In this document: positions 40,126-52,365 of the stretch, piece by piece
Position numbering within the stretch: the stretch's first letter is position 1
Layout of the letters: every line of letters starts with the position of its first letter
NCBI GenBank assembly: GCA_024421095.1
Contig: JAHQYM010000007.1
Coordinates: forward strand, 1-52,365
DNA length: 52,365 nt
Direction: 5' to 3'
Source: Acidimicrobiia bacterium
GTDB taxonomy: Bacteria; Actinomycetota; Acidimicrobiia; Acidimicrobiales; Aldehydirespiratoraceae
Position numbers and translations under genes: made by a program
Notes under the pieces: model-generated
What the model was told of the DNA's origin: nothing
What the model saw: the letters and a program-made list of their open reading frames with translations, nothing else
Database searches by the model: none

Positions 40126-41516
40126 TGCTCTGCTCCGTCTGTTGGCGTTGGAAGTAACTCAGCATGGTTGATATGTTCGATCTGGTCGGTGAACACGGAA
40201 TCAATTTCGTGCCATTCTAGTGCTTGCCCGTTTTCGTCAACCAAGTCCACATTGTCGAGGAGCCAACCAATCGCTTGGGTTTTTGCGAAGGTAGCTCGCG
40301 CCGAAACTAGTTCTCCAATTTCTTTGAACACTCGGATGTATTCGCCGCTTTCGAGATCTGCCGCTTGCGCCATCTTCTTTATGGATGCTTCAAAGGCAGC
40401 GGGGGTGTTGAGTTCTTCGGCTTGGGCAATGGCTCGCAGTGCAAGATCTAGCTTGACATCTCGAGTTGCGGGAGCGGTGAATTCAGAACGGACTTGGTTG
40501 ATGTCTTTACCGACGCTTGAAAGAAACTCTTCTTCGGTAATGCCGGCATTACGGATGTTGCCGAGGAAAGTGTGCATTCTTGAATCGATCTCGGAGTTGA
40601 TTAATGCCTCGGGCAGATCCTCTTCAACTAGCGCGGCTAAACTGTCGGACAATTTTTGGTCTGCGACACGACCCACCGCAGAACGTTTTTTTTCGGAAAG
40701 GGTTTCGTCTAAGCCAGCTTGCCACTCTTCAAGGGTGTCAAATTCGCTAACCGCGGCGACCCATGCATCGTTGAGTTCGGGTAATACCGGTTTCTTCACT
40801 GCCAACACGGCGACAGCAAAGTGCAAAGGAGAAGATTCAGCATCTGGGTGTGCAGCCGCAAATTCTATTTCGTCTCCGGCGCTAGTGCCACGCAAGTTCT
40901 CGTCTATCTCAGCCACAACCGTGCCGCTCCCAACGCCATAGTCATAATCGTTAGCCGATAATGCTGGTAGCGCTTCTCCCTCGTGACTACCGACGATGTT
41001 GATGGTCACCAAGTCGCCGTCTTGGGCAGGGCGTTCAACCGTTTCGTATTCGATGTGTTCAATTCGCATTTTTTCGATTTGGTCATCAACCTCTTCGTCT
41101 GTGGCCGTAGGGTCCGGCACCTCAATGCGTAGGTCATGGTAGCCGCTGATGACGACTACCGGCCGCACCTGAACCGTGGCATCGAAGACTAAAATGCCTT
41201 CTTCTAGTCCGCCTAAGACTTCCAATTCGGGTACATCAATGACATCCAATTCTTGATCGAACACCGCTCGCTGGTAGTAGCCCGGAAGTGCCTCACGGAT
41301 CGCTTCTTGGCGGCCATACTGATACCCCAGTTGCGCCTCAAGGACACGTCTTGGCGCTCGGCCTTTACGAAACCCCGGCACTCGCACATCTGCCGCGATG
41401 CGTCTGAAAGCCTGATCGATGGCTGTCTCTAGTTCTGTCTCGTCTACTTCAACGGTCAGTTTGACCTTGTTGTCTCCGAGAGCTTCAATGCCGCTTGTGG
41501 CCTCGCTGATTATCAC
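40122..41516 (-). CDS. tig: Trigger factor
   Basis: 464 residues, the ribosome-bound chaperone and prolyl isomerase. The N-terminal ribosome-binding domain has [26 protein letters not shown] (the GFRxGxxP signature). An FKBP-like PPIase domain lies around 160-245 ([18 protein letters not shown]), and the C-terminal arms domain is helical. It starts with a GTG at 41516, the last codon before an 18-bp tandem repeat that opens the accessory island. It is the first gene of the long minus-strand block. Confidence 0.94.
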
Positions 41517-41550
41517 CAGACAAAGCCTAACGGCAGGAATGGCAAGTTGG

Positions 41551-41640
41551 GTCGTTTGCTTCGGGTGAGTCGGTTGCCTCGGGTGAGTCGTTTGCTTCGG
41601 GTGAGTCGATTGCCTCGGGTGAGTCGGTTGCCTCGGGTGA
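41551..41640. repeat. Five 18-bp tandem repeats at the core/island junction
   Basis: Exactly five 18-bp units, GTCG(N)TTGC(C/T)TCGGGTGA, at 41551, 41569, 41587, 41605 and 41623. They vary only at two positions. They sit between the tig start and the first island gene. On the plus strand they read as SGES(V/F/I)A repeats, recalling the SSGE phrases of the HNH tail at 3.8-4.4 kb. Confidence 0.7.
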
Positions 41641-41672
41641 TAAGATCACGGTCTCCATGGGATAGGAGCGCC

Positions 41673-42077
41673 ATGAACAAAGTCGCCGAGATCGTTTCCA
41701 ACGACCTGTGTATTGGGTGCGGGCTCTGTGAAGCGGTGACGGAGGGGCGGGCGACAATGGCGATGACCCCCGACGGTTCTCTGCGCCCGACTCCAGTGGA
41801 CGCGTTCAGCGCAGCGGAGGAAGCAAGGATCATCGCTGCCTGCCCTGGTGTCGTGGCCGAGGCCCGATCTGCACCGCACCTGCCGCTGGACCCGGTGTGG
41901 GGGCATCACGGCACCATGCGACTGGCGGCCCGCTACGAGGGTATGGCCGACGCTGGGGTTGATCCCATCACCACCCACGGGCTGCGGGTTGCCGAACTGG
42001 GCGACCGCTTGGGCCCAGCCGAGTCTGCGGCTCAGCGCACCGGTGCCGCAACCCGGATGCGGAGGGCACGAGCATGA
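41673..42077 (+). pseudogene. F420 hydrogenase/dehydrogenase beta subunit N-terminal fragment
   Basis: 134 residues from the ATG at 41673 (AGGAG at 41664). Residues 1-75 match the start of coenzyme F420 hydrogenase/dehydrogenase beta-subunit proteins: DLCIGCGLCEAV (a ferredoxin-like Cys cluster), then MTPDGSLRPTPVDAFSAAEEARIIAACPGVVAE and LDPVWGHHGTMRLA. The remaining ~55 residues (ARYEGMADAGVDPITTHGLRVAEL...) do not look like the rest of that family, so a deletion seems to have fused two genes. The intact family is about 400 residues. The stop overlaps the next ATG (ATGA) of a dehydratase remnant, as in a former operon. Confidence 0.6.
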
Positions 42078-42177
42078 GGATTGAACGGATCAACGTCTGG
42101 GCTCGATTGGCGACGATCGTGCTCACTTCTCGCACTGGTCACGAGCATGAGGATTGAGCGGATCAACGTCTGGGCTC
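42067..42177 (+). repeat. 38-bp tandem duplication at a gene start
   Basis: The segment from CACGAGCATGAGG to GTCTGGGCTC occurs at 42067-42104 and again at 42140-42177, with one base difference and a 73-bp period. It duplicates the start (MRIERINVWA) of the dehydratase-like gene. The first copy runs into a stop after 26 codons. Confidence 0.7.
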
Positions 42178-42466
42178 TGGGGTTGCCTCTGGCGCGCCCT
42201 ATTCGCTTTCGGGCGGCCGGTTGCACTTTGATCGTCTGGACTCCACCTTGGTGAGGCTCGACACCGACGAGGGTCTCAGCGGTTGGGGTGAGGCCTGCCC
42301 GTGGGGCTCCACCTGTCTGCCAGTCTTCGCCTGAAGGAATTGTGCGGGCATTGAGGAACTGGCACCGGTGATCCTGTGCCAGTACCCTCGCCGCACCGAG
42401 GTCGTCTATCAGGCCATGAAAAGCGCGCTGCCGGGTCACCCCTACGTCAAGTCGGCGATCGATATG
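42147..42466 (+). pseudogene. Enolase-superfamily dehydratase remnant (cis-3-hydroxyproline dehydratase-like)
   Basis: MRIERINVWALGLPLARP is in one frame. After a one-base loss near 42207, YSLSGGRLHFDRLDSTLVRLDTDEGLSGWGEACPWGS continues in another. An in-frame TGA (about 42331) and then EELAPVIL.Q.PRRTEVVYQAM.SALPGHPYVKSAIDM follow. This is the N-terminal part of a mandelate racemase/muconate-lactonising family protein; the SGGRLHFD and GWGEACPWG segments best fit the hydroxyproline dehydratase group. It stops exactly where an IS30 transposase tail begins (42467). The barrel with the catalytic residues is lost. Confidence 0.7.
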
Positions 42467-42640
42467 TCCCGCTGCGGTGACCACAGCAACGAACAACCCA
42501 ACGGACTGCTACGACGCTGGCTACCCAAAGGTACCAACCTCGACGTAAACCCCACACACGTCGCGCTCATCCAAGATGCCCTCAACCAAATGCCCCGCAA
42601 ACTCCACAACTCGAAAGCAGCACAACACATCTACACTACG
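42467..42640 (+). mobile_element. IS30-family transposase C-terminal fragment
   Basis: About 58 codons reading GDHSNEQPNGLLRRWLPKGTNL and then LNQMPRKLHNSKAAQHIY. This matches the C-terminal end of the IS30 DDE domain (...NENxNGLLRxYxPKGTD..., with the catalytic Glu, then LNxRPRKxLxxxTPxEVF). The frame is fused without interruption to the dehydratase remnant upstream and to an IS3 tail downstream. Confidence 0.75.
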
Positions 42641-42935
42641 CTCTGTTGCAACCGCCGATGGAGTTTGCTCACCCAACAACTCGAACGCGCCCGCAACCAC
42701 CACAACACGGTGCGGCTCCACGAACACGTCGGTTACGTCACCCCCTACGACGAAAACACGGGACAAGGCGACCAGATCCGCCAAGCACGCCAACACGGAC
42801 TCCAACAAGCCGACGCGCAACGACGCCCCCACCACCGAAACCAACCGCTAACACGACAAACCAACCAACGCCATCCGCCAACCGATGCGACTTGAAAAAA
42901 CCACCGATCTGTCGCGCAGAGTCAGATACACCTCA
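42641..42935 (+). mobile_element. IS3-family transposase C-terminal fragment with right end (copy B)
   Basis: The frame reads LERARNHHNTVRLHEHVGYVTPYDE and then QIRQARQHGLQQADAQRR, the end of an IS3-family integrase-core transposase, with a stop at 42893-42895. Sequence shared with the remnant at 9936-10115 continues to CACCTCA at 42935, the likely right terminus. The 5' half of the element is missing; the IS30 fragment abuts it. Confidence 0.75.
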
Positions 42936-42951
42936 CGACGCGCCGGCTGGC

Positions 42952-43029
42952 GCGTTCAATACCGTCTCCACCGGCACCTCGTACTCTTGTGGGCTAAGGG
43001 CTGACAGCACCATCGTCTGCTGGGGTCTC
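42952..43029 (+). pseudogene. RCC1-type repeat fragment
   Basis: 26 codons, AFNTVSTGTSYSCGLRADSTIVCWGL, match one blade of an RCC1/BLIP-II beta-propeller repeat (xFxxVsaGxxhsCgLraDGtvvCWG). No start, stop or neighbouring blades remain. It is a gene scrap left by rearrangement. Confidence 0.6.
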
Positions 43030-43059
43030 CGGTCGAGGAGTTTGGTGACAGCGAACCAA

Positions 43060-43280
43060 CGGCGGTTGCGGCCCGACCGTTGCTCTCGACACCGACGCTG
43101 GATACAACACCGCACGACGCAAGTGCCGACAACACGGTACGCCCGCCGTGCTCGCTTACTCCGAGCCGTTCGGCCACATAAGCGGCACGCAAAACCAGGA
43201 TCGCCAGCAAATGGACGAGCAGGTCCCGCACGGTGTGGTCTTCACGGTCAGCCGGCAGGAGCCCGACCACATCTACTGCT
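43060..43280 (-). pseudogene. Winged-helix fragment, possibly the C-terminus of a Fic-type protein
   Basis: The minus-strand frame contains VRDLLVHLLAILVLRAAYVAERLGVSEHGGRTVLSALASCGVV. The AAYVAERLGVSxxxxRxxLxxLxxxGVV pattern is a helix-turn-helix of the kind found at the end of Fic-domain proteins. Nothing else of such a gene remains. The assignment is tentative. Confidence 0.3.
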
Positions 43281-43291
43281 TGGCTTGAACT

Positions 43292-43328
43292 GCCACTTTA
43301 TTGGCTGATGAACAGCCACTTTATTGGC
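43292..43328 (+). promoter_or_regulatory. Direct repeat GCCACTTTATTGGC before the AAA/DUF4143 gene
   Basis: The 14-mer GCCACTTTATTGGC occurs at 43292-43305 and 43315-43328, 23 bp apart (about two helical turns). Each copy is itself nearly palindromic (GCCA..TGGC). The second ends 5 bp before the ATG at 43334. This is the layout of a repressor-binding site over a start region. Confidence 0.5.
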
Positions 43329-43333
43329 GTATC

Positions 43334-44638
43334 ATGTGCCATATGAACGATCTGTCGATGGCCTCGAACGACCTGACACCTCAAGAGTACCTGCCCCGCG
43401 TGGTCGACGCCGAGATGCACAGGGTCCTTCGAGCGCTGCCTGCGGTCGTCATTGAAGGCCCCCGCGGCTGCGGCAAGACCTGGACCGCCAGACGCTTCGC
43501 CGCCAGCGCGGTCTACCTTGACGAGCGCGCCGGGGCCGCCTTGGACTCTGGCATGGACCCGGCATCGATCCTCGACGGCGCCCCACCGCGCTTGATCGAT
43601 GAATGGCAACTCGCACCGTCGATCTGGAATCCCATGCGGCGGGCTTGCGACGCTCGGGGGCTCAGAGGACAGTTCATCCTCACCGGTTCAGCCGACCCAC
43701 CCGACGACATTACCCGGCACTCGGGTGCGGGGCGCATCAGCCGCGTACGGATGAACCCGATGAGCCTGTATGAGAGCGGAGAATCAGACGGGGCCGTTTC
43801 ACTGGCAGCGCTGCTCGACGGCGGCGACTGTGCCGCACCAGACACGGGATCCACGCTTGGAGACGTCCTAGCCCTAGCCTGCCGTGGAGGGTGGCCCCAG
43901 ATGCTGGGAGTCGACCCGGCGACCGCAGCAGAGGCGTCCAGGGCCTACCTCGAAGAGATCAGCCGCACCGACGTGTCACGAGTCGACGGTGTGGAACGTG
44001 ATCCGCGGCGGGTGCGCCGACTGTTGGCATCAATCGCCCGCAACGCGGCAACTGAGGTCAGACACACAGTCCTTGCCGCCGACACCGCCGCTGCTGGAGA
44101 CACACCGCTTGAGCGCCGAACCGTGGCGGACTACTTGGCAGCACTGTCACGGCTGTTCGTAGTCGAGGAAGTGCCCGCATGGCGAACACACATCGCATCG
44201 CGTGCCCAGGCTCGGCGTTCCCCGAAGATCCACCTCGTCGATCCGTCGCTCACCGCAGCGGCACTCGCGGTCGGGGTCGACGGTCTTTTGCGCGACCTCA
44301 GTTTCGCGGGCCGCTTGTTCGAGTCGATGGCGCTGCGCGACCTGCAAATCTACGCACGGGCGAGTCGCTGCTCCGTCTCGCATTTCCGCGACAGTGACAA
44401 CCTCGAAGTCGATGCCGTCATCGAGCAACCGGACCGAAGATGGGTTGCGCTGGAAGTCAAACTCGGCGGCCGCGAGGCCATCGACAAGGGGGCTGCTTCG
44501 CTGCTGCGGCTACGCAACAAACTTGATCTCGAACGCACCGGTGAACCTGCGAAGTTGGTGGTTGTCACCGCTACCGGATACGGCTACCAACGCCCAGACG
44601 GTGTCTGCGTGGCTCCGCTGACATCAATCGGCCCATAG
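43334..44638 (+). CDS. AAA ATPase with DUF4143 domain (COG1373 type)
   Basis: 434 residues (431 if the ATG at 43343 is used). The AAA domain has Walker A IEGPRGCGKTWTARRFA near residue 40, Walker B-like PRLIDEWQLAPSIWNPMRR, and sensor ILTGSADPPD. The DUF4143 part follows from about residue 200, with EISRTDVSRVDGVERDPRRVRRLLASIARN. Its C-terminal segment has a PD-(D/E)XK-like signature: NLEVDAVIEQPDRRWVALEVKLGG (D...ExK). The family is widespread in variable regions, and its cellular role is not established. The gene is intact among scraps. A two-copy near-palindromic repeat lies just before the start, suggesting self-regulation. Confidence 0.85.
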   Translation: MCHMNDLSMASNDLTPQEYLPRVVDAEMHRVLRALPAVVIEGPRGCGKTWTARRFAASAVYLDERAGAALDSGMDPASILDGAPPRLIDEWQLAPSIWNPMRRACDARGLRGQFILTGSADPPDDITRHSGAGRISRVRMNPMSLYESGESDGAVSLAALLDGGDCAAPDTGSTLGDVLALACRGGWPQMLGVDPATAAEASRAYLEEISRTDVSRVDGVERDPRRVRRLLASIARNAATEVRHTVLAADTAAAGDTPLERRTVADYLAALSRLFVVEEVPAWRTHIASRAQARRSPKIHLVDPSLTAAALAVGVDGLLRDLSFAGRLFESMALRDLQIYARASRCSVSHFRDSDNLEVDAVIEQPDRRWVALEVKLGGREAIDKGAASLLRLRNKLDLERTGEPAKLVVVTATGYGYQRPDGVCVAPLTSIGP

Positions 44639-44684
44639 GCCGCGGACTGGCAGCACCCACTCGACCTCCCATCCCGGGACTCTT

Positions 44685-45083
44685 TCAGTCGGCGGCATGC
44701 TCCGCGGTGATCTTGCCCTCAGCCAACAACTCGGCCAACTTGGGCATCTCAACAAACCCAGCAACAGTCTTGGCGACCCTGTTAGCCGCGCGGGTGGCGA
44801 GCGCGGTGAACGGTGAGTTGTAAACGCGGCCAGCAACAGTCTTGGCGACCCTGTTTGCCGCGCGGGTCGACATACGCCCCACCTCAACCAACGCCACCTT
44901 GGAGCCTCGGCGGCCTCCATCATCCAGCGCCTCGATTTCAGTAGCGCACCGTGTCTGCAGCGCATTCATAGCCGCCACAACACGCCTCGTACCCGCAACA
45001 AGACCCTCCATCTCGCCGTAGACCCAATACCCGCTAATTTCCGAAGAGCCCCCAATCCAAGGTCTGCTGCGGCCTGAGATCAC
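44685..45083 (-). pseudogene. Inverted, truncated DUF222-HNH copy
   Basis: The minus-strand frame reads MEGLVAGTRRVVAAMNALQTRCATEIEALDDGG and then GRMSTRAANRVAKTVAG. This is closely similar to residues ~25-80 of the intact gene at 45536. The TRAANRVAKTVAG segment occurs twice in the frame, a 63-bp-scale internal duplication. The frame breaks off with a stop right after KITAEHA. The HNH part is absent. Confidence 0.75.
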
Positions 45084-45329
45084 CCCAGCCTTAGAAATCC
45101 CCGACCGAGCTCGCCCCGGGGTGGCCGTGGCGGTGGTTGGGCGCGGCGGGTTCAGATAATTCTGGTCGGGAGACAGGTGCTGTCGGATGCCGGGCGTCCG
45201 GTCAGATTGACAGGTGCGAGTCGTTCGGTGCGAGCCGTGGCGGCCTAGTTATGTTTCTGCTTGGGGATCTGCCGGTCTGGAACCTCATCAATTTCATGCA
45301 GTGTCACACCCTGTCAGTAAGGTGTGGTC

Positions 45330-45551
45330 ATGTTCCATTCGATGATCCAAAAGGTTCGGGGCGTGACGGTTGCTGGGCTCTCGCGTGCCGAGTTGGAAGA
45401 CCTAGTCGCCGGCGCCGGGCGAGTGATCGCCACAACAGCAGCGTCACGACACACCCGTGGTTCAGCATGCGGATCTGCCGGTCTGGAACCTCATCAATTT
45501 CATGCAGTGTCATACCCTGTCAGTAAGGTGTGGTCATGTTCGATTCAATGA
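45330..45551 (+). pseudogene. Truncated DUF222 5' copy (73 codons)
   Basis: It starts MFHSMIQKVRGVTVAGLSRAELEDLVAGAGRV, like the intact gene, then leaves homology and reads through the second hairpin in another frame, stopping at 45551 inside the intact gene. If translated, its ribosomes would pass through the second hairpin and start codon. The start sits after the hairpin CACACC/GGTGTG (45305-45326). Confidence 0.6.
45511..45532 (+). promoter_or_regulatory. Hairpin over the start region of the intact HNH gene
   Basis: CATACC (45511-45516) pairs with GGTGTG (45527-45532), one G-T pair, around the loop CTGTCAGTAA. The ATG is at 45536. The Shine-Dalgarno-like AAGG lies at the base of the 3' arm. 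Loop sequence (GTCAGTAA) and geometry match 2488-2511 and 45305-45326. Confidence 0.5.
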
Positions 45552-46693
45552 TCCAAAAGGTTCGGGGCGTGACGGTTGCTGGGCTCTCGCGTGCCGAGTT
45601 GGAAGACCTAGTCGCCGGCGCCGGGCGGGTGGTGGCGGCGATGGGGGCGTTGCAGACACGGTGCGCGACCGAGATCGAGGCTCTTGATGACGGCGGGATG
45701 AACTCCAAGACGGTGTTGCGCGAGGCGGGTCGCATGTCGACCCGGGCGGCGAACAAGGTCGCCAAGACCGCTGCGGGGCTTGTTGAGTTGCCCAAGCTCG
45801 CGGAGTCGTTGGCTCAAGGCAAGATCACCACAGAGCATGCTGAGGTGGCTGTGAGCGCGGCTGCGAAGACTTCGCCTCAACAAGTCAACGATCAACTGTC
45901 GGGTCTTGCTGAGGAATCGTCGGTTGATACCTTTACAGAGCAGTCACGGCAATGGGTGAACCGCAACCAGCCCGACAACGGCGCCGGACGCTATGAACGG
46001 CAGCGCCGCAACCGGTCGTTGAAGCATTGGGTCAACGACGAGGGCATGGGCGTTCTGCTCGCGGAGCTCGATCCGGTCAGCTACCAACAAGTACGCAAGG
46101 CCGTCGACGTCGAGTATGACCGCCTGTGGCGCGGCGACGGCGGCCGCGACGGCTCCCCCGACGATGTTCGTACATTCCCGCAACGTATGGCCGACGCGTT
46201 CGTGGCTTTGTTGACCAACCCGGCGCGTCGTGGGCCGGGCAGCACTAGGCACCAGCTCATCGCCATAGCCGACATAGAACGCCTCCGCGGCGACAACCCC
46301 ACCGGTGTCGCTGAGATTGTTGGTGGTGAAGCGTTACCGCAGACTGTGCTGGAACGGCTCATCTGCACCGCGGCTGTTACCGGCATCGTGTTCGACGGCA
46401 AGGGACAACCCCTCTGGGTGGGACGCACCCACCGACACGCCACCGAAGCCCAAATCAAAGCCATCATCGCCCGCGACCGGCACTGCCGAGGCAAACACTG
46501 CACCTCCGGACCCGAACGCTGCGAAATACATCACATCGTCCCCTGGGAACAAGGCGGACGAACAGACATCGACGAAATGTGCCTTGCCTGCCCGCTGTGC
46601 CACCACAACATCCACGACCGCGGCTACACCGTCATCAAAACCAACACCGGCTACCAAATCATCAACCCCAACAACCCACCCAACGGCCCCTAA
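45536..46693 (+). CDS. DUF222 / 13E12-type HNH endonuclease
   Basis: 385 residues, normal family length. The DUF222 region spans ~1-280 (LSRAELEDLVAGAGRVVAAMGALQTRCATEIEALDDGG, VGRTHRHATEAQIKAI at its end). The HNH domain is at ~305-365: RDRHCRGKHCTSGPERCEIHHIVPWEQGGRTDIDEMCLACPLCHHNIHDRG, with Cys pairs and the HH/N/H core intact. The ATG at 45536 is chosen by comparison with the other copies. It is the only full copy in a cluster with an inverted and a truncated relative. It ends 17 bp before a three-copy repeat. DNA cleavage is expected; the role is unproven. Confidence 0.88.
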   Translation: MFDSMIQKVRGVTVAGLSRAELEDLVAGAGRVVAAMGALQTRCATEIEALDDGGMNSKTVLREAGRMSTRAANKVAKTAAGLVELPKLAESLAQGKITTEHAEVAVSAAAKTSPQQVNDQLSGLAEESSVDTFTEQSRQWVNRNQPDNGAGRYERQRRNRSLKHWVNDEGMGVLLAELDPVSYQQVRKAVDVEYDRLWRGDGGRDGSPDDVRTFPQRMADAFVALLTNPARRGPGSTRHQLIAIADIERLRGDNPTGVAEIVGGEALPQTVLERLICTAAVTGIVFDGKGQPLWVGRTHRHATEAQIKAIIARDRHCRGKHCTSGPERCEIHHIVPWEQGGRTDIDEMCLACPLCHHNIHDRGYTVIKTNTGYQIINPNNPPNGP

Positions 46694-46709
46694 CCCACCC
46701 ATCCGAAAA

Positions 46710-47168
46710 GGAGTCGTTGGATCGTTGTCAGAAGGCAAGCCTACGCTCTGCCACTAGAAGCACGACACGAACGGCACCGCGCTGGTTCACCCTCAAACGG
46801 CGAATCTCAACATGCCAAACAGATCAAGCGCCTTGCAACGTGGGGTGAAACGCCCCCAAACCCACCCCAGCGACAAGGAGTCGTTGGGTCGCTGTCAGAG
46901 GGCAACTGGATAATCTACCACTGGAGGTATTGACATGGACAGCGCCGCGCTGGCTCACCATGAATCGGCGAATCTCAACTTGTCAGATGGATGGGGCGTC
47001 TTGTTGCGCGGGGCGCCACGCTCCCCCGACAGGAGTCGTCGGGTCGCTGTCAGAGGGCAACTGTATAATCTACCACTGGAGGTATTGACATGGACAGCGC
47101 CGCGCTGGCTCACCATGAATCGGCGAATCTCAACTTGTCAGATGGATGGGGCGTCTTGTTGCGCGGGG
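46710..47168 (+). repeat. Triplicated ~137-bp promoter/leader cassette
   Basis: Three direct copies: 46710-46845 (diverged), 46877-47013 and 47032-47168. The last two differ at only two positions. Each has GGAGTCGT(T/C)GG(G/A)TCG, then CTGTCAGAGGGCAACTG, a (T/G)ATAAT box, ACTGGAGG, and a start codon opening MDSAALAHHESANLNLSDGWGVLLRG. The first copy has lost the ATG (ACG) and its -10 box. The cassettes fill the whole gap between the HNH gene and the large ATPase gene. Confidence 0.8.
47064..47069 (+). promoter_or_regulatory. TATAAT -10 box of cassette copy 3
   Basis: A perfect TATAAT at 47064-47069, 20 bp before the leader ATG at 47090, with ACTGGAGG between as ribosome-binding site. No good TTGACA is seen at 16-18 bp upstream (the region reads GTCGGGTCGCTG), so activation by a regulator is possible. 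Copy 2 has GATAAT at 46909-46914. Confidence 0.45.
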
Positions 47169-47254
47169 TGAAGATGCGGACGAACTCGGAGCCGGCAGGT
47201 GTCAAGACATCGTTGTGTGCGGCTTTCCGGGATACCCAGAGCAGCAAGCCGTGA
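47090..47254 (+). CDS. 54-codon leader ORF overlapping the large ATPase gene
   Basis: It starts at the ATG after GGAGGTATTGAC and reads MDSAALAHHESANLNLSDGWGVLLRG, then a unique tail ending ...DTQSSKP. Its TGA (47252-47254) overlaps the GTG start of the large gene (GTGA), so ribosomes finishing the leader could restart on it. The first 26 codons are shared with the frame at 46935 in cassette copy 2. No family is recognised; it may serve coupling rather than encode a working protein. Confidence 0.45.
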   Translation: MDSAALAHHESANLNLSDGWGVLLRGVKMRTNSEPAGVKTSLCAAFRDTQSSKP

Positions 47255-50200
47255 CGAGCGTGGGCGATTCGGCCAGCGGTACCGAGGCGCTTGGGGCTAC
47301 GGATCCCCAGGCGGATGGCGCGATCGTTGGGACGATCGTCCAACAGAATCTGGATGTCTACCGGGTGTCCCCATCGAGGCTCCAAGAGGACGTCAGCCAG
47401 GAGGCCCAGGTAGCGAGCGACTATCGGGGCCGTCTGGTCTATGAGCTTCTCCAGAATGCTGATGACGCCATGGAATCGTCGGAATCGGACACGGATCGCG
47501 TTGTCTTCGTCATAACCGACGATGCCTTCTGGATGGCGAACTCTGGTCGACCATTGACCGAGGCTGATGTCCAGGGTCTCTGCGGCCTGGGCGCAAGCTC
47601 AAAAGTCGATCCGGCGGGAACCAAGAGGGCATCGATCGGTCACAAGGGCCTTGGTTTCAAGAGCGTCCTTGAGATCACGGACGCTCCGGCGATCTATTCG
47701 CGCACACACTCATTTCGGCTTGGTGAGCGCGAAGCACGACCTCATGTCGAAGAACTCTGGGAAGGACTGGACAGCACTCCGCCGCAGGCCGTGCCAGCGA
47801 TGCGCTTCCCGTCCGTGATCGGAGAAGAGGGCGACGAAGATCGGTGGCCAGCACTGCGCGACAGCGGACTCAACGCGGCCTTTCAGTTCCCCTTCCGTGA
47901 GGATTTCGCGTCCGACCAGCGTGAGGGCTTGACCGACCTCCTGCTGAACCTTCCACTCACCACGGTCCTTTTCCTCAAGCACCTTGAATCGGTAGAAGTC
48001 CGGGGTGATCAGACGAGACGATCAGAGCATCGAGTGTGGAAGATCAGCCGAACGATCCAACGAGAAGGTGAGTGGGTTCCCGTACCAGGTTTGGGAGACT
48101 CAGGCCTCTACAGGGTAACCGTCTCGAATTCGGCCGGTGAGTCCGCCGCCTTCTATATCGCCCACAATGCGAAGGTTCCGATTGGCCCCAACAGAGAAGG
48201 ACTGAGTGGGCCCGCCTGGCAGGGCGTCGACCTCACCGAAGTGTCGATTGCAGTGCTGGAAAACGACCCTGACGATGGTATGCCGAAGGAATGGAGGCGC
48301 TTCCACGTGTTCCTTCCAACTGAAGAGCCTTGTCCGTATCCGATGTTGGTGAACGGAGCGTTTTCCACGGATATGTCTCGTCAACGCATCCGAGTTCGTC
48401 CCGAGCGTGGAGACTACAACTCGCACCTCGTCAGGGAAGCAGCTCGTCTGTTCGTGAACCAGATTCTGCCCGAACTCCAAAGAGACGGTGCGAGCCGAGT
48501 GCTTGCAGCGTTGGACCGTGGAGACGACCCTGACGGAGGAGAAGCAGCAAATCTCCTCCATGACTGCCTCGTCGAGTTACTCGCGGCCGAGCCCCTGATT
48601 CCAACGGAGTCCGGCCACCGGCGGCAGATTGGTGCATGCGCACTTCCTCCATCCCTGTTGGAGAAGGAAGGGGAACTGTTCCGGAAGATGCTGGCGGCGA
48701 ACGCGAAGTGGCGCGAAGCAGAGTTTCCGGACGCCGAGTTCTGTCGTGGCCGCTGGGCCCGAGTTGCTGCTGACCATGGCGCGGCACAGCTCACGCCTGC
48801 CGAGTGCTTGGCGGCCCTGGGCACGCTCACAGACCCAGAGCGAGCATCGATACGGGAGCACGAATCGGGCTTCTACGAGGTGGATCCCGTTCTTGAGTTG
48901 AGCGCACTGCTCTGGGAGCGATCTGACTTTGCTGAACGATCAGAAATCGAGACTGCTGCACGTCGTGAGCAGGTATTTCCTATCCACCGCAACGACGACG
49001 GCAGCGTCCAACGTGTGACGCTGGGCGACGACACGGCGTTCTATCCGCCGCAGTCCGCCAAGCGTGACTTTCCGCTTCGAGGGCTGCAATTCCTCTGCCA
49101 CTCCATCTGCTGGGGTGCGCTGAACAGGAACGAACGCAACGAGAGGCTGGGCGAGCAGATGAAGACCTGGTCGGCTCTGTTCGATATCAAAGAATTCCGA
49201 TTCCAAGAAGTCATGCAAGCATCCGTGCTGCCAGCCCTTGGTTTGACCCCCTCACCGGAGCAACTCTCGTGGCGAGATGAGCTGCGCAGCACAGAGTCTC
49301 TTGCGGCGATATGCCAGTTGGCGGGCGCATTTGTGAAACCCGACAGACCGCTTCGATACCAAAGGCTGCAGAGTGACAGGGCCATCTTCAATCTCAGCCG
49401 ATTGCCGGTGCCGTGCGTGGATCACGAGGGCACGGAGCGATGGGTGCCCGCGTACCAAGCCTACTTCGGTCGGGCGTGGTTGGAGGATGCGTCGTTCGAG
49501 CATGTTGTTGATGCCTTGCCGGAGGACGCTCCGATCGGTGCGTGCTTTCTCGTGTCTCCTGATAAGTTCGTCGGTTTGCTTGATTCGGCCCAGGAGGACC
49601 ACGAGGTCACGACTGATGGTGATGACGACGAAGTAGACCTCGATGAGGACGTTGATCGCGCTCTCGAGACGACCGAGTTTGAGCGTTGGCTCAACTTCCT
49701 GTCCTGGATCGGTGTGAATCGTTCGCTGAGGTTGGTTCACTTCCACGATGTCGAAGACCGCGACTCAGGGTGGTTGACGACAAAAGATCTGCAACAACCC
49801 AAGGGATGGGCCTTCCGCGACCTGGGCGAGACTTGGAGCGAATACTGCGCGGACCTTACGGCCAGGCTCGCTGAACGCTCAGAACGCAACAAAGTCGTGC
49901 CATACCTGTACGAAGTGCATGACCTTGAATTCGCGCTCCAACTCATCGAGGCCGCTCAGCGGGATGCGACAGCAGAGATTGCGACCCGACTGTTCGACCA
50001 CCTCACTATGAACTGGAAGACGTATGCTCCGCTAGCCGATGCCCAGGTCGCCTTGGTTGATGTTCGTAAGTGGCCGGCTGGTCGGAGCAAACCGCAGCGA
50101 GCCACGCCCGAAGAGATCACATCAGTCGGTGACAACCTATGGTTGTATCGGTTGCGCACCAGCAGTGCCTGCCCGACATCCCGAGGACCCCGTCGCCCAG

Positions 50201-52083
50201 AGGCCACATGGCGCCTCACACCAGAACTGGAGCGACGGTTCACCTTTTCTAGAGGACACCGCGATGCGAGCGATTTGGTACCCGTGCTCAAGCAATCGTC
50301 AGATTTATCGGAGAACGACCTCCGAGCATTCTGCGAGCGCCTCGGTATCCACTCCGAAGTCAGCCCCACGACCTTCACGATTGAGGATGCCAGGCTTCTT
50401 TGTGTGCAGATCGAACGGTTATATGGCGACAAAGCGGTTGATGCATCCGATCTACGTAACGTCATCAGGCCTGCATACCGGTCGATGTTCGAATTGTTGA
50501 GCGGTAAGGCGGGATCCGACGCCAGCATTCCTTTGGCGGATTCTCGACTATTGGCCGAAGAGGCTGGCCATCACAAGTTCCTGCCCGCCGTGGAAGTGCT
50601 GTTCGCTTCCACTCCTGGGATCAGGGAGCGCAGTGGCCTGGCCGGAAGCGTTCCTCTCTTTGTCCTTGAAGCCGAACCTGCAGCCTTGGCTCCGCTCGCA
50701 TCCGTGTTCGGCTGCCGAGAACTCGAGATGGTCCTGGAATGGCACCCCAACCCCGGAGGCCCGGTTGGATGTTCCGAACTCGGCGAGATACGACGGGGGA
50801 TGAGTCGATTGGTTCCACCGTTGGCGGCGCGCATCCGTGCCGAACGAAATAATACGCAAGACCTACGGAATCTCCTTGAGTTCGCAGAACAGGTCGAACC
50901 GGTGGAAGAGCTTGAGGTCACCTGCACGCTCGACGGAGAGCCACTCGATCGACATTCGAACCCGGGCTATTACGTGCGTCCTCGGACCCGAGCGAAGAAG
51001 TTTCAAGGCTTCATTGTGTGGACGGGAGCGGGTTGGCCGCCTGACCCAGACACTGCCCAGAGTCTCGCCATGGCCATTGCAGACACGTTAGGGATCAATC
51101 TTGTCGAGACCATTCTCGCGTTCATCACCAGTGACGACAGGCATCGGGTGCAGTTGCTCAACATTGCTGGAGCGTCCGGTCACTACCAGGACGTACTTGT
51201 TGAACTCTCCGAGGATTCGGATGTTCAGGTGGAACTCAAGGCACCGGTCGCTGAACCGACGGCGGCACCTAAGTCGCAGCAACCCCGCGAGGAGGGAATC
51301 CCGAGCGGACCCGATGTCCCACGCCCGGCAACGCCGCCCGTTCCGCTCCACAGTTTCAATTCTCTTCTGCTTGATGGGGAACCTCTGATTGTGACGGGTG
51401 AGCAGGCCAGCGGGGATGGTCGATTAGAGCGATCTGGAGGCCCGGACGGTTCCCCAAGTGCTGCGACGCCAAACAGGGCACCCGCCGGAACCGACCTTTT
51501 GGCCCTAGATGCTCTCGGGATGCAGATCGCTATCGCCTACGAGGCACGGCGTCTCGAGGGGGTTCGCCACTCGGTGACGATTGTCTCGGGAGACATCTTG
51601 CAGGGGGGCGATGGCTCGCTTGCCGATGACACACTTGTTGTGGCTGTCCATACTCCCGACGCAGTTGCTCGCGCCGAGAAACTGAGCGACGTGGTCAAGC
51701 GCGTAATGGAGGACTTGGAGGCCACTGGTGTGAGCCGTGTTCATCCCGGGTTTGACCTGCTGTCAATTCGCGGCGGTGAGATTGACCGCCTGATCGAACT
51801 CAAGTCTTCGGGGGTTGATGCGCGGGTGCAAGCGATGACGTGGAATGAGTGGAAGAGCGCATCACGCAGTGACCTCCGCTCAAGGTTCTGGCTGTATCTG
51901 GTCGGCAACCTTCGTGCCGACCTTGATCATGCATCTCCTTACGTTCGGGCAATCAACGATCCCTTCGGGAGCCTCGTAGGTGAGACGGTCGAGGACCAGC
52001 AAGTGAAACGCGCCGTGCAGATACGCGTGCGGGAGTTTACAACCGCCGAGCATCTCGACCTCACGGTGACTCGCAAATCTTGA
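47251..52083 (+). CDS. Sacsin/HSP90-like GHKL ATPase with C-terminal DUF3883 domain
   Basis: 1,610 residues from the GTG at 47251. Residues ~30-180 form a sacsin-type HATPase: N-box YELLQNADDAME, G1-like DDAFWMANSGRPLTEADVQGLCGLGASSK, and G2 IGHKGLGFKSVLEITDAP. Residues ~180-1380 are a long alpha/beta region without recognised motifs; near ~790 is an acidic stretch (DGDDDEVDLDEDVDRALE). Residues ~1390-1430 are a Pro/Ala linker. Residues ~1430-1610 match DUF3883: GFDLLSIRGGEIDRLIELKSSG (D...ExK, PD-(D/E)XK-like), then MTWNEWKSASRSDLRSRFWLYLVGNL. An ATP-gated nuclease is inferred. Related proteins lie in variable, often defence-rich islands. Here it follows mobile DUF222-HNH copies and a repeated leader cassette, with no helicase or methylase partner in view. 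Confidence 0.8.
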   Translation: MTSVGDSASGTEALGATDPQADGAIVGTIVQQNLDVYRVSPSRLQEDVSQEAQVASDYRGRLVYELLQNADDAMESSESDTDRVVFVITDDAFWMANSGRPLTEADVQGLCGLGASSKVDPAGTKRASIGHKGLGFKSVLEITDAPAIYSRTHSFRLGEREARPHVEELWEGLDSTPPQAVPAMRFPSVIGEEGDEDRWPALRDSGLNAAFQFPFREDFASDQREGLTDLLLNLPLTTVLFLKHLESVEVRGDQTRRSEHRVWKISRTIQREGEWVPVPGLGDSGLYRVTVSNSAGESAAFYIAHNAKVPIGPNREGLSGPAWQGVDLTEVSIAVLENDPDDGMPKEWRRFHVFLPTEEPCPYPMLVNGAFSTDMSRQRIRVRPERGDYNSHLVREAARLFVNQILPELQRDGASRVLAALDRGDDPDGGEAANLLHDCLVELLAAEPLIPTESGHRRQIGACALPPSLLEKEGELFRKMLAANAKWREAEFPDAEFCRGRWARVAADHGAAQLTPAECLAALGTLTDPERASIREHESGFYEVDPVLELSALLWERSDFAERSEIETAARREQVFPIHRNDDGSVQRVTLGDDTAFYPPQSAKRDFPLRGLQFLCHSICWGALNRNERNERLGEQMKTWSALFDIKEFRFQEVMQASVLPALGLTPSPEQLSWRDELRSTESLAAICQLAGAFVKPDRPLRYQRLQSDRAIFNLSRLPVPCVDHEGTERWVPAYQAYFGRAWLEDASFEHVVDALPEDAPIGACFLVSPDKFVGLLDSAQEDHEVTTDGDDDEVDLDEDVDRALETTEFERWLNFLSWIGVNRSLRLVHFHDVEDRDSGWLTTKDLQQPKGWAFRDLGETWSEYCADLTARLAERSERNKVVPYLYEVHDLEFALQLIEAAQRDATAEIATRLFDHLTMNWKTYAPLADAQVALVDVRKWPAGRSKPQRATPEEITSVGDNLWLYRLRTSSACPTSRGPRRPEATWRLTPELERRFTFSRGHRDASDLVPVLKQSSDLSENDLRAFCERLGIHSEVSPTTFTIEDARLLCVQIERLYGDKAVDASDLRNVIRPAYRSMFELLSGKAGSDASIPLADSRLLAEEAGHHKFLPAVEVLFASTPGIRERSGLAGSVPLFVLEAEPAALAPLASVFGCRELEMVLEWHPNPGGPVGCSELGEIRRGMSRLVPPLAARIRAERNNTQDLRNLLEFAEQVEPVEELEVTCTLDGEPLDRHSNPGYYVRPRTRAKKFQGFIVWTGAGWPPDPDTAQSLAMAIADTLGINLVETILAFITSDDRHRVQLLNIAGASGHYQDVLVELSEDSDVQVELKAPVAEPTAAPKSQQPREEGIPSGPDVPRPATPPVPLHSFNSLLLDGEPLIVTGEQASGDGRLERSGGPDGSPSAATPNRAPAGTDLLALDALGMQIAIAYEARRLEGVRHSVTIVSGDILQGGDGSLADDTLVVAVHTPDAVARAEKLSDVVKRVMEDLEATGVSRVHPGFDLLSIRGGEIDRLIELKSSGVDARVQAMTWNEWKSASRSDLRSRFWLYLVGNLRADLDHASPYVRAINDPFGSLVGETVEDQQVKRAVQIRVREFTTAEHLDLTVTRKS

Positions 52084-52093
52084 TCGTTCACGA

Positions 52094-52113
52094 TTTTCGA
52101 GCCTGCGCGTAAA
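52094..52113 (+). repeat. 20-bp motif, copy 2 (matches 699-718)
   Basis: Same sequence and orientation as 699-718, 11 bp after the large gene's stop. The following ~130 bases hold no gene but include GCAAAC/GTTTGC arms (around 52173 and 52207) that could form a hairpin, as in copy 1. Its position just before a new start codon suggests the left end of an insertion sequence. Confidence 0.5.
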
Positions 52114-52245
52114 GGTGGCGTGGGGGTGATTGTGGGTACCTGACTGGGGTTTGGGTCCGAGTGCGGCGATGCAAACGGCCTGCTTTTTCCTGATCGCAGT
52201 GTTCGGGGTTTGCGGTTTGGGTTGGGTTGTGCTATTGTCTGGTTG

Positions 52246-52365
52246 ATGACTTTTGATTTGTCTGCGACACTAACCCTTTTGGAAGGATTACGTAATGATG
52301 TTCGTTGCCCATCACAGGATAGCCCGCAGCGGCTCGGGCGTTACTTCCTCGGGCGTTGACTTAGT
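52246..52365 (+). CDS. Possible 5' end of a gene running off the window
   Basis: Two frames compete. An ATG at 52295, 6 bp after GGAAGGA, opens MMFVAHHRIARSGSGVTSSG and stays open to the window edge. An ATG at 52246 opens MTFDLSATLTLLEGLRND and stops at 52359. The better ribosome-binding site favours the first. Following the 20-bp motif, it may be a transposase, but too little is visible to name it. Confidence 0.3.

Follow-up and report, generated by a model that had tools for sequence, protein, structure and literature searches.

What does a very large protein that joins a sacsin-type ATPase head to a DUF3883 tail do for an acidimicrobial bacterium, when its gene lies among broken insertion sequences and remnants of metabolic genes? 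The gene, here called tmtA-like (tmtA for short), is located near the right end of the 52,365-nucleotide stretch of DNA that we analysed (the window), and a sequence-only reading of that stretch had proposed that it encodes a solitary defence protein within a mobile island. We considered this proposal in light of the domain architecture of the protein, its relatives, the conservation of its putative active site and the chromosomal junction at which it is found.

Gene and domain architecture

The tmtA-like gene occupies 47251..52083 on the forward strand, where the other window features given below with coordinates also lie, and is a single intact, stop-free frame of 1,610 codons (1,610 amino acids) with a GTG start, at the coordinates given in the earlier reading. 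The frame itself opens at ATG 47146 and its stop ends at 52083, though GTG 47251 is the likelier start, since a short leader ORF terminates there in a GTGA overlap and the alignment to the close relative L015 favours the same codon; motifs and residues are numbered from this GTG. The three ATP-binding boxes noted in the earlier reading are all present, namely the N-box ELLQNADDA (residues 65-73), ANSGRPL (96-102) and the glycine box IGHKGLGFKS (129-138), and profile matches agree with them. The sacsin-type GHKL ATP-binding domain (47431..47706, residues 61-152) matches Pfam family SACS, PF25794, at 1.3e-9, an NCBIfam sacsin N-terminal ATP-binding-like domain (P_loop_sacsin) is matched at 3.2e-21, and sacsin ATPase domains of known structure (PDB 5v47) are found at E 9.8e-10 with a profile built from eight homologues. 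At the other end, the NOV_C domain (PF13020, formerly DUF3883; 51739..51912, residues 1497-1554) is matched at 1e-5, and both Pfam matches pass the curated cut-offs. This tail contains the motifs GFD (1500-1502), IELKSSG (1515-1521) and NEWKSA (1532-1537), and with them D1502, E1516-x-K1518 and N1532-E1533-W1534, so that the D...ExK pattern attributed to it stands, with D, E and K conserved. In the middle region (47707..51738, residues 153-1496) the earlier reading had recognised no motif, and a Pfam scan of the ~1,340 residues between PF25794 and PF13020 likewise returned no family above cut-off; the region is alignable and collinear with haloarchaeal homologues, and we propose that it may serve as the coupling or recognition part of the protein.

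Two eukaryotic proteins offer points of comparison. Human sacsin has a sacsin-type ATP-binding domain as well, but sacsin repeats (SRR), DnaJ and HEPN are absent from the Pfam matches of the present protein, which comprise just one SACS stretch and NOV_C, the DUF3883 tail standing in their place. Plant NO VEIN, the source of the Pfam name NOV_C, bears a C-terminal NOV_C domain and presumably a sacsin-like ATPase part too; it is a eukaryotic developmental protein.

Membership in the Tiamat family

The best match of the protein in the defence library was to TmtA of PADLOC, with model PDLC03964 aligned to residues 65-1355 at 1.2e-59 (200 bits), and nine TmtA models were matched altogether (PDLC03964, PDLC03971 at 2e-55 and seven others). 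In L015, the 79%-identical relative, one TmtA model covers residues 56-1577 through model positions 27-1340 of 1370, and in a search of the phylum genomes the C-terminus of PDLC03964 (~1440-1520, within its last ~100 positions) matches DUF3883 proteins. Because both this C-terminus and the L015 alignment reach DUF3883, the layout of head and DUF3883 tail is part of the known family. Judged from these profiles, the combination of sacsin head and DUF3883 tail is an already profiled Tiamat architecture with nothing unrecognised in it, and the gene very probably encodes a Tiamat-family (TmtA) protein. For models of this length the TmtA scores are modest, which makes the kinship to the experimentally tested Tiamat protein, a link made through profiles alone, a distant one.

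Tiamat was reportedly named by Millman et al. in 2022 as a single-protein antiphage system. It has since been described as a defence system whose mechanism is unknown (PMC10482375; PMC12926258), as common in Pseudomonas genomic islands (PMC12629846) and as seldom found in archaea (PMC13321033); in the papers we searched for Tiamat, no mechanism was found. The present protein resembles Tiamat in being one large protein with a sacsin/GHKL head and DUF3883 at the C-terminus of the profile, and in a pattern of occurrence that takes in chromosomes and islands of Actinobacteria and Pseudomonas, with rarity in archaea; it differs in its distance from the profiles, and is a member predicted from sequence. 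It is a single large protein with an N-terminal GHKL/HATPase domain (1,610 aa, PF25794) and no adjacent partner gene, as expected of Tiamat. The earlier suggestion of a single-protein defence system therefore holds with respect to the defence role of the family, given the best match to TmtA and the patchy, plasmid-borne and variable-spot occurrence of its members, but not with respect to novelty, since the architecture is that of profiled Tiamat.

Homologues and their genomic context

Close full-length copies of the gene were found in L015 (79% identity; by its coordinates the same gene as G654:C28) and in genome G075 (locus L046, 72%). More distant homologues on haloarchaeal plasmids (L058-L063) are collinear with the window's protein at ~25% identity, with tblastn coverage of 97-99%. 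Across eight full-length homologues the core N-box, glycine-box and GFD...R.IE.K...NEW residues are invariant, and because this invariance extends to proteins 25% identical over their full length, the motif set is, on this comparison, beyond chance. The distribution of tmtA is patchy: of the 396 phylum genomes that were sampled, just two (G075 and the window's own) gave full-length matches, and the gene is present in three of the six genomes of the genus; a distant relative, G448, retains a broken 5' fragment. Rather than lying mainly in conserved housekeeping context, which would have spoken against a defence role, the full-length copies are patchy, plasmid-borne or located in a presence/absence spot.

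The head of the protein is found with other C-terminal parts as well. A full-length scan of viral contigs returned 11 distant relatives, of which several have a different C-terminus, and four Actinomycetota proteins (L048, L049, L050, L052) have a similar head and similar total length, but carry C-terminal ResIII/Helicase_C where the present protein has DUF3883. One SACS-helicase protein of the Actinomycetota set adjoins a DrmA (DISARM) gene. Since proteins with the same head end in a helicase, the C-terminal tail seems to be exchangeable among sacsin-head proteins.

Homologues also occur on plasmids of other phyla, where several are found in the company of restriction or defence genes: Argonaute, PLD and UvrD genes (L060), a cytosine methylase and helicases (L059), an Mrr-type nuclease gene (L061, L062 and L120), AbiEii (L123) and a Qat system (L124). 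In the last of these, the Sulfuricurvum plasmid pSULKU01 (L124 7309-15844), a NERD-domain gene and the sacsin-DUF3883 gene lie directly ahead of the annotated Qat system. A locus on Arthrobacter p2MP (L065) comprises methylase, ATP-binding protein, PD-(D/E)XK and Z1 genes; it is alike in its sacsin-like head match but is a multi-gene operon, whereas the window holds a solitary gene. Scored by product names, restriction or defence genes were present in ~6 of 13 homologue stretches versus 1-4 of 13 control stretches, one equally long stretch ~50 kb away on each of the 13 plasmids. This excess is suggestive, but the enrichment is not significant.

This company raises an alternative, namely that the protein is a restriction-like barrier directed against plasmids and other mobile DNA rather than phage, with a solitary DUF3883 nuclease acting on foreign or modified DNA and the GHKL head serving as an ATP-driven clamp. 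DUF3883 has been reported as a restriction-endonuclease domain of restriction-modification operons (PMC3710099), and the cytosine methylase, Mrr and PD-(D/E)XK genes adjoining homologues are consistent with this idea. We nevertheless regard it as unlikely, as the window copy lies without an adjacent methylase or specificity gene and many of the homologues are themselves plasmid-borne.

Conservation of the tail and selection on the gene

In an alignment of 15 diverse DUF3883 domains, a set that takes in proteins from viral contigs and Actinomycetota down to 10% identity to that of the window, exactly three columns are invariant, and these correspond to D1502, E1516 and K1518. PD-(D/E)XK nucleases have D...ExK as their catalytic signature, and the invariant D and E-x-K expected of this superfamily were found across all 15 domains. 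A 2013 analysis likewise names DUF3883 a novel restriction-endonuclease domain, found in restriction-modification operons (PMC3710099). At the level of the fold, hhalign gave no match between the DUF3883 alignment and a shallow Mrr set of three near-identical sequences, and the DUF3883 profile returned chance matches only among PDB sequences. AlphaFold models built from 6 sequences for the tail and from 5 sequences for residues 21-1190 had pLDDT values of 33.8 and 32.8, respectively, too low for the models to be of use, probably because the alignments were too shallow.

The ratios of nonsynonymous to synonymous substitution (dN/dS) of tmtA were 0.28 between the window and L015, 0.13 between the window and G075, and 0.16 between L015 and G075. 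Every part of the gene is under purifying selection, the ATPase and tail being among the best-conserved, and the gene is therefore maintained. These values bear on the notion that tmtA is merely carried along in a repeat-rich island as a decaying gene that no longer has a function, as might be supposed from the broken IS elements and metabolic remnants that surround it and from the broken copy in the distant relative G448. An open frame of 1,610 codons with dN/dS of this order, in which the ATPase and tail are kept best, makes such a history very improbable.

Given a head homologous to sacsin, and given that animal sacsin works as a chaperone (PMC3710099), the protein might instead be a sacsin- or Hsp90-like chaperone or stress protein whose DUF3883 tail is inactive or merely binds nucleic acid. 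We consider this quite improbable; the D, E and K are kept in 15 of 15 tails where nearly all else is variable, the occurrence is as patchy as described above for both phylum and genus, and in some relatives the same head is joined to a helicase.

Proposed mechanism

We favour, with moderate confidence, a Tiamat-family single-protein antiviral system in which the ATP-dependent head licenses cleavage of nucleic acid by the tail. GHKL ATPases close upon ATP binding, as established for Hsp90, MutL and gyrase B, and the mechanism we propose, an ATP-gated nuclease, follows this logic, though we would give it about an even chance of being correct. The head together with the middle region would bind a cue of infection, which is probably a nucleic-acid structure or a protein of the phage. 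Like other GHKL ATPases, the head would then close on binding ATP, and closure would free or dock the DUF3883 tail. The tail, so released or positioned, would cut nucleic acid, which could be phage DNA, host DNA or RNA, and phage multiplication would be halted either through cutting of the phage DNA or through damage to the cell. D1502, E1516 and K1518, in combination with N69 of the N-box, provide a direct point-mutation handle on this proposed mechanism.

More tentatively, sacsin-type heads may represent a general ATP-gated infection sensor that is combined with exchangeable effectors, either a DUF3883 nuclease or an SF2 helicase, a generalization that we view as possible but doubtful. It would assign a DUF3883 effector to the present protein and many of the plasmid copies, and an SF2 helicase to the other Actinomycetota proteins. 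Were it to hold, Tiamat would be an ATP-gated single-protein nuclease, and the architecture of plant NO VEIN might derive from prokaryotic defence proteins of this kind.

The chromosomal junction and its neighbourhood

The GC content of the window is 0.52-0.57 over most of its length and 0.59-0.64 from 41.5 kb onward; the host part, at 52-57%, compares with ~60-67% in related loci of the genus. The left edge of the variable spot is marked by broken FrhB-like and mandelate-racemase-like gene remnants (41661..42469). In two relatives without tmtA (G248 and G656) both of these genes are intact, and indolepyruvate:ferredoxin oxidoreductase and dihydrolipoamide-dehydrogenase-like genes lie ~0.1-0.2 kb past the racemase gene. 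In G075, tmtA directly follows the racemase gene in convergent orientation, while in L015 a transposase remnant and an apparent VapBC pair separate it from the oxidoreductase gene, which begins ~1.1 kb further on. In the window it is 4.8 kb beyond the racemase remnant, and the oxidoreductase gene of this genome is now on a different contig. These positions place all three tmtA copies at or beside one junction, which, by gene order, is empty in the two relatives, with rearrangement afterwards. An arrangement of the three close copies in three unrelated loci is ruled out by this synteny. The occupied and empty states within a single genus offer a clean natural comparison. The apparent VapBC pair of L015 (5500-6200) was read by sequence inspection as an RHH protein and a PIN-like protein.

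Since one junction is occupied or empty among relatives, we read the locus as a variable spot of the chromosome and not as an island able to move itself. Between 41.5 and 52.4 kb, neither the ORFs of 100 aa or more nor the Pfam matches include an integrase, save a transposase-type integrase-core remnant, and IS assignments rest on sequence inspection. The mobile island suggested earlier is thus borne out in part, as a variable junction with IS remnants. The suggestion that the gene stands alone fares similarly: the ORF and Pfam scan of the window placed no methylase, helicase or toxin partner adjacent to tmtA, but the neighbouring DUF4143/AAA_14 ATPase in the same variable spot (43301..44638) itself matches a PADLOC phage-defence candidate, PDC-S01 (2.1e-68). 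A DUF222-HNH protein is encoded at 45530..46693, also as a neighbour of tmtA.

Immediately upstream of tmtA are three tandem copies of a leader-ORF promoter and start region (46764..47180), spaced at 168 and 155 bp. L015 has this array ahead of its tmtA as well (1-294), and no copies were found elsewhere in the window's genome. The leader ORF (47090..47254; 54 aa, MDSAAL...FRDTQSSKP) is preceded by GGAGG, and the overlap of its stop with the tmtA GTG raises the possibility of translational coupling. It is conserved in L015, though with a dN/dS of 0.61 over 54 codons it is weakly supported as a gene, and a related leader (MDSG...FRDTQGS) lies ahead of tmtA in G075 (L046 from 7346).

Several smaller features were also apparent. 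An Rfam scan of 41000-52365 returned no family. Five 18-bp tandem units lie at 41551-41640, on the 5' side of a trigger-factor gene. A 179-bp tandem duplication (45252-45430 and 45458-45636, 94% identical), similar in kind to the array before tmtA, precedes the DUF222-HNH gene and reaches into its 5' end. A run of 26 bp at the tmtA 3' terminus (52073-52098) is identical to L143 ~1426-1451, at the break in the G654 racemase gene; this sequence is perhaps an insertion-element end, from which the last residues of the protein may derive.
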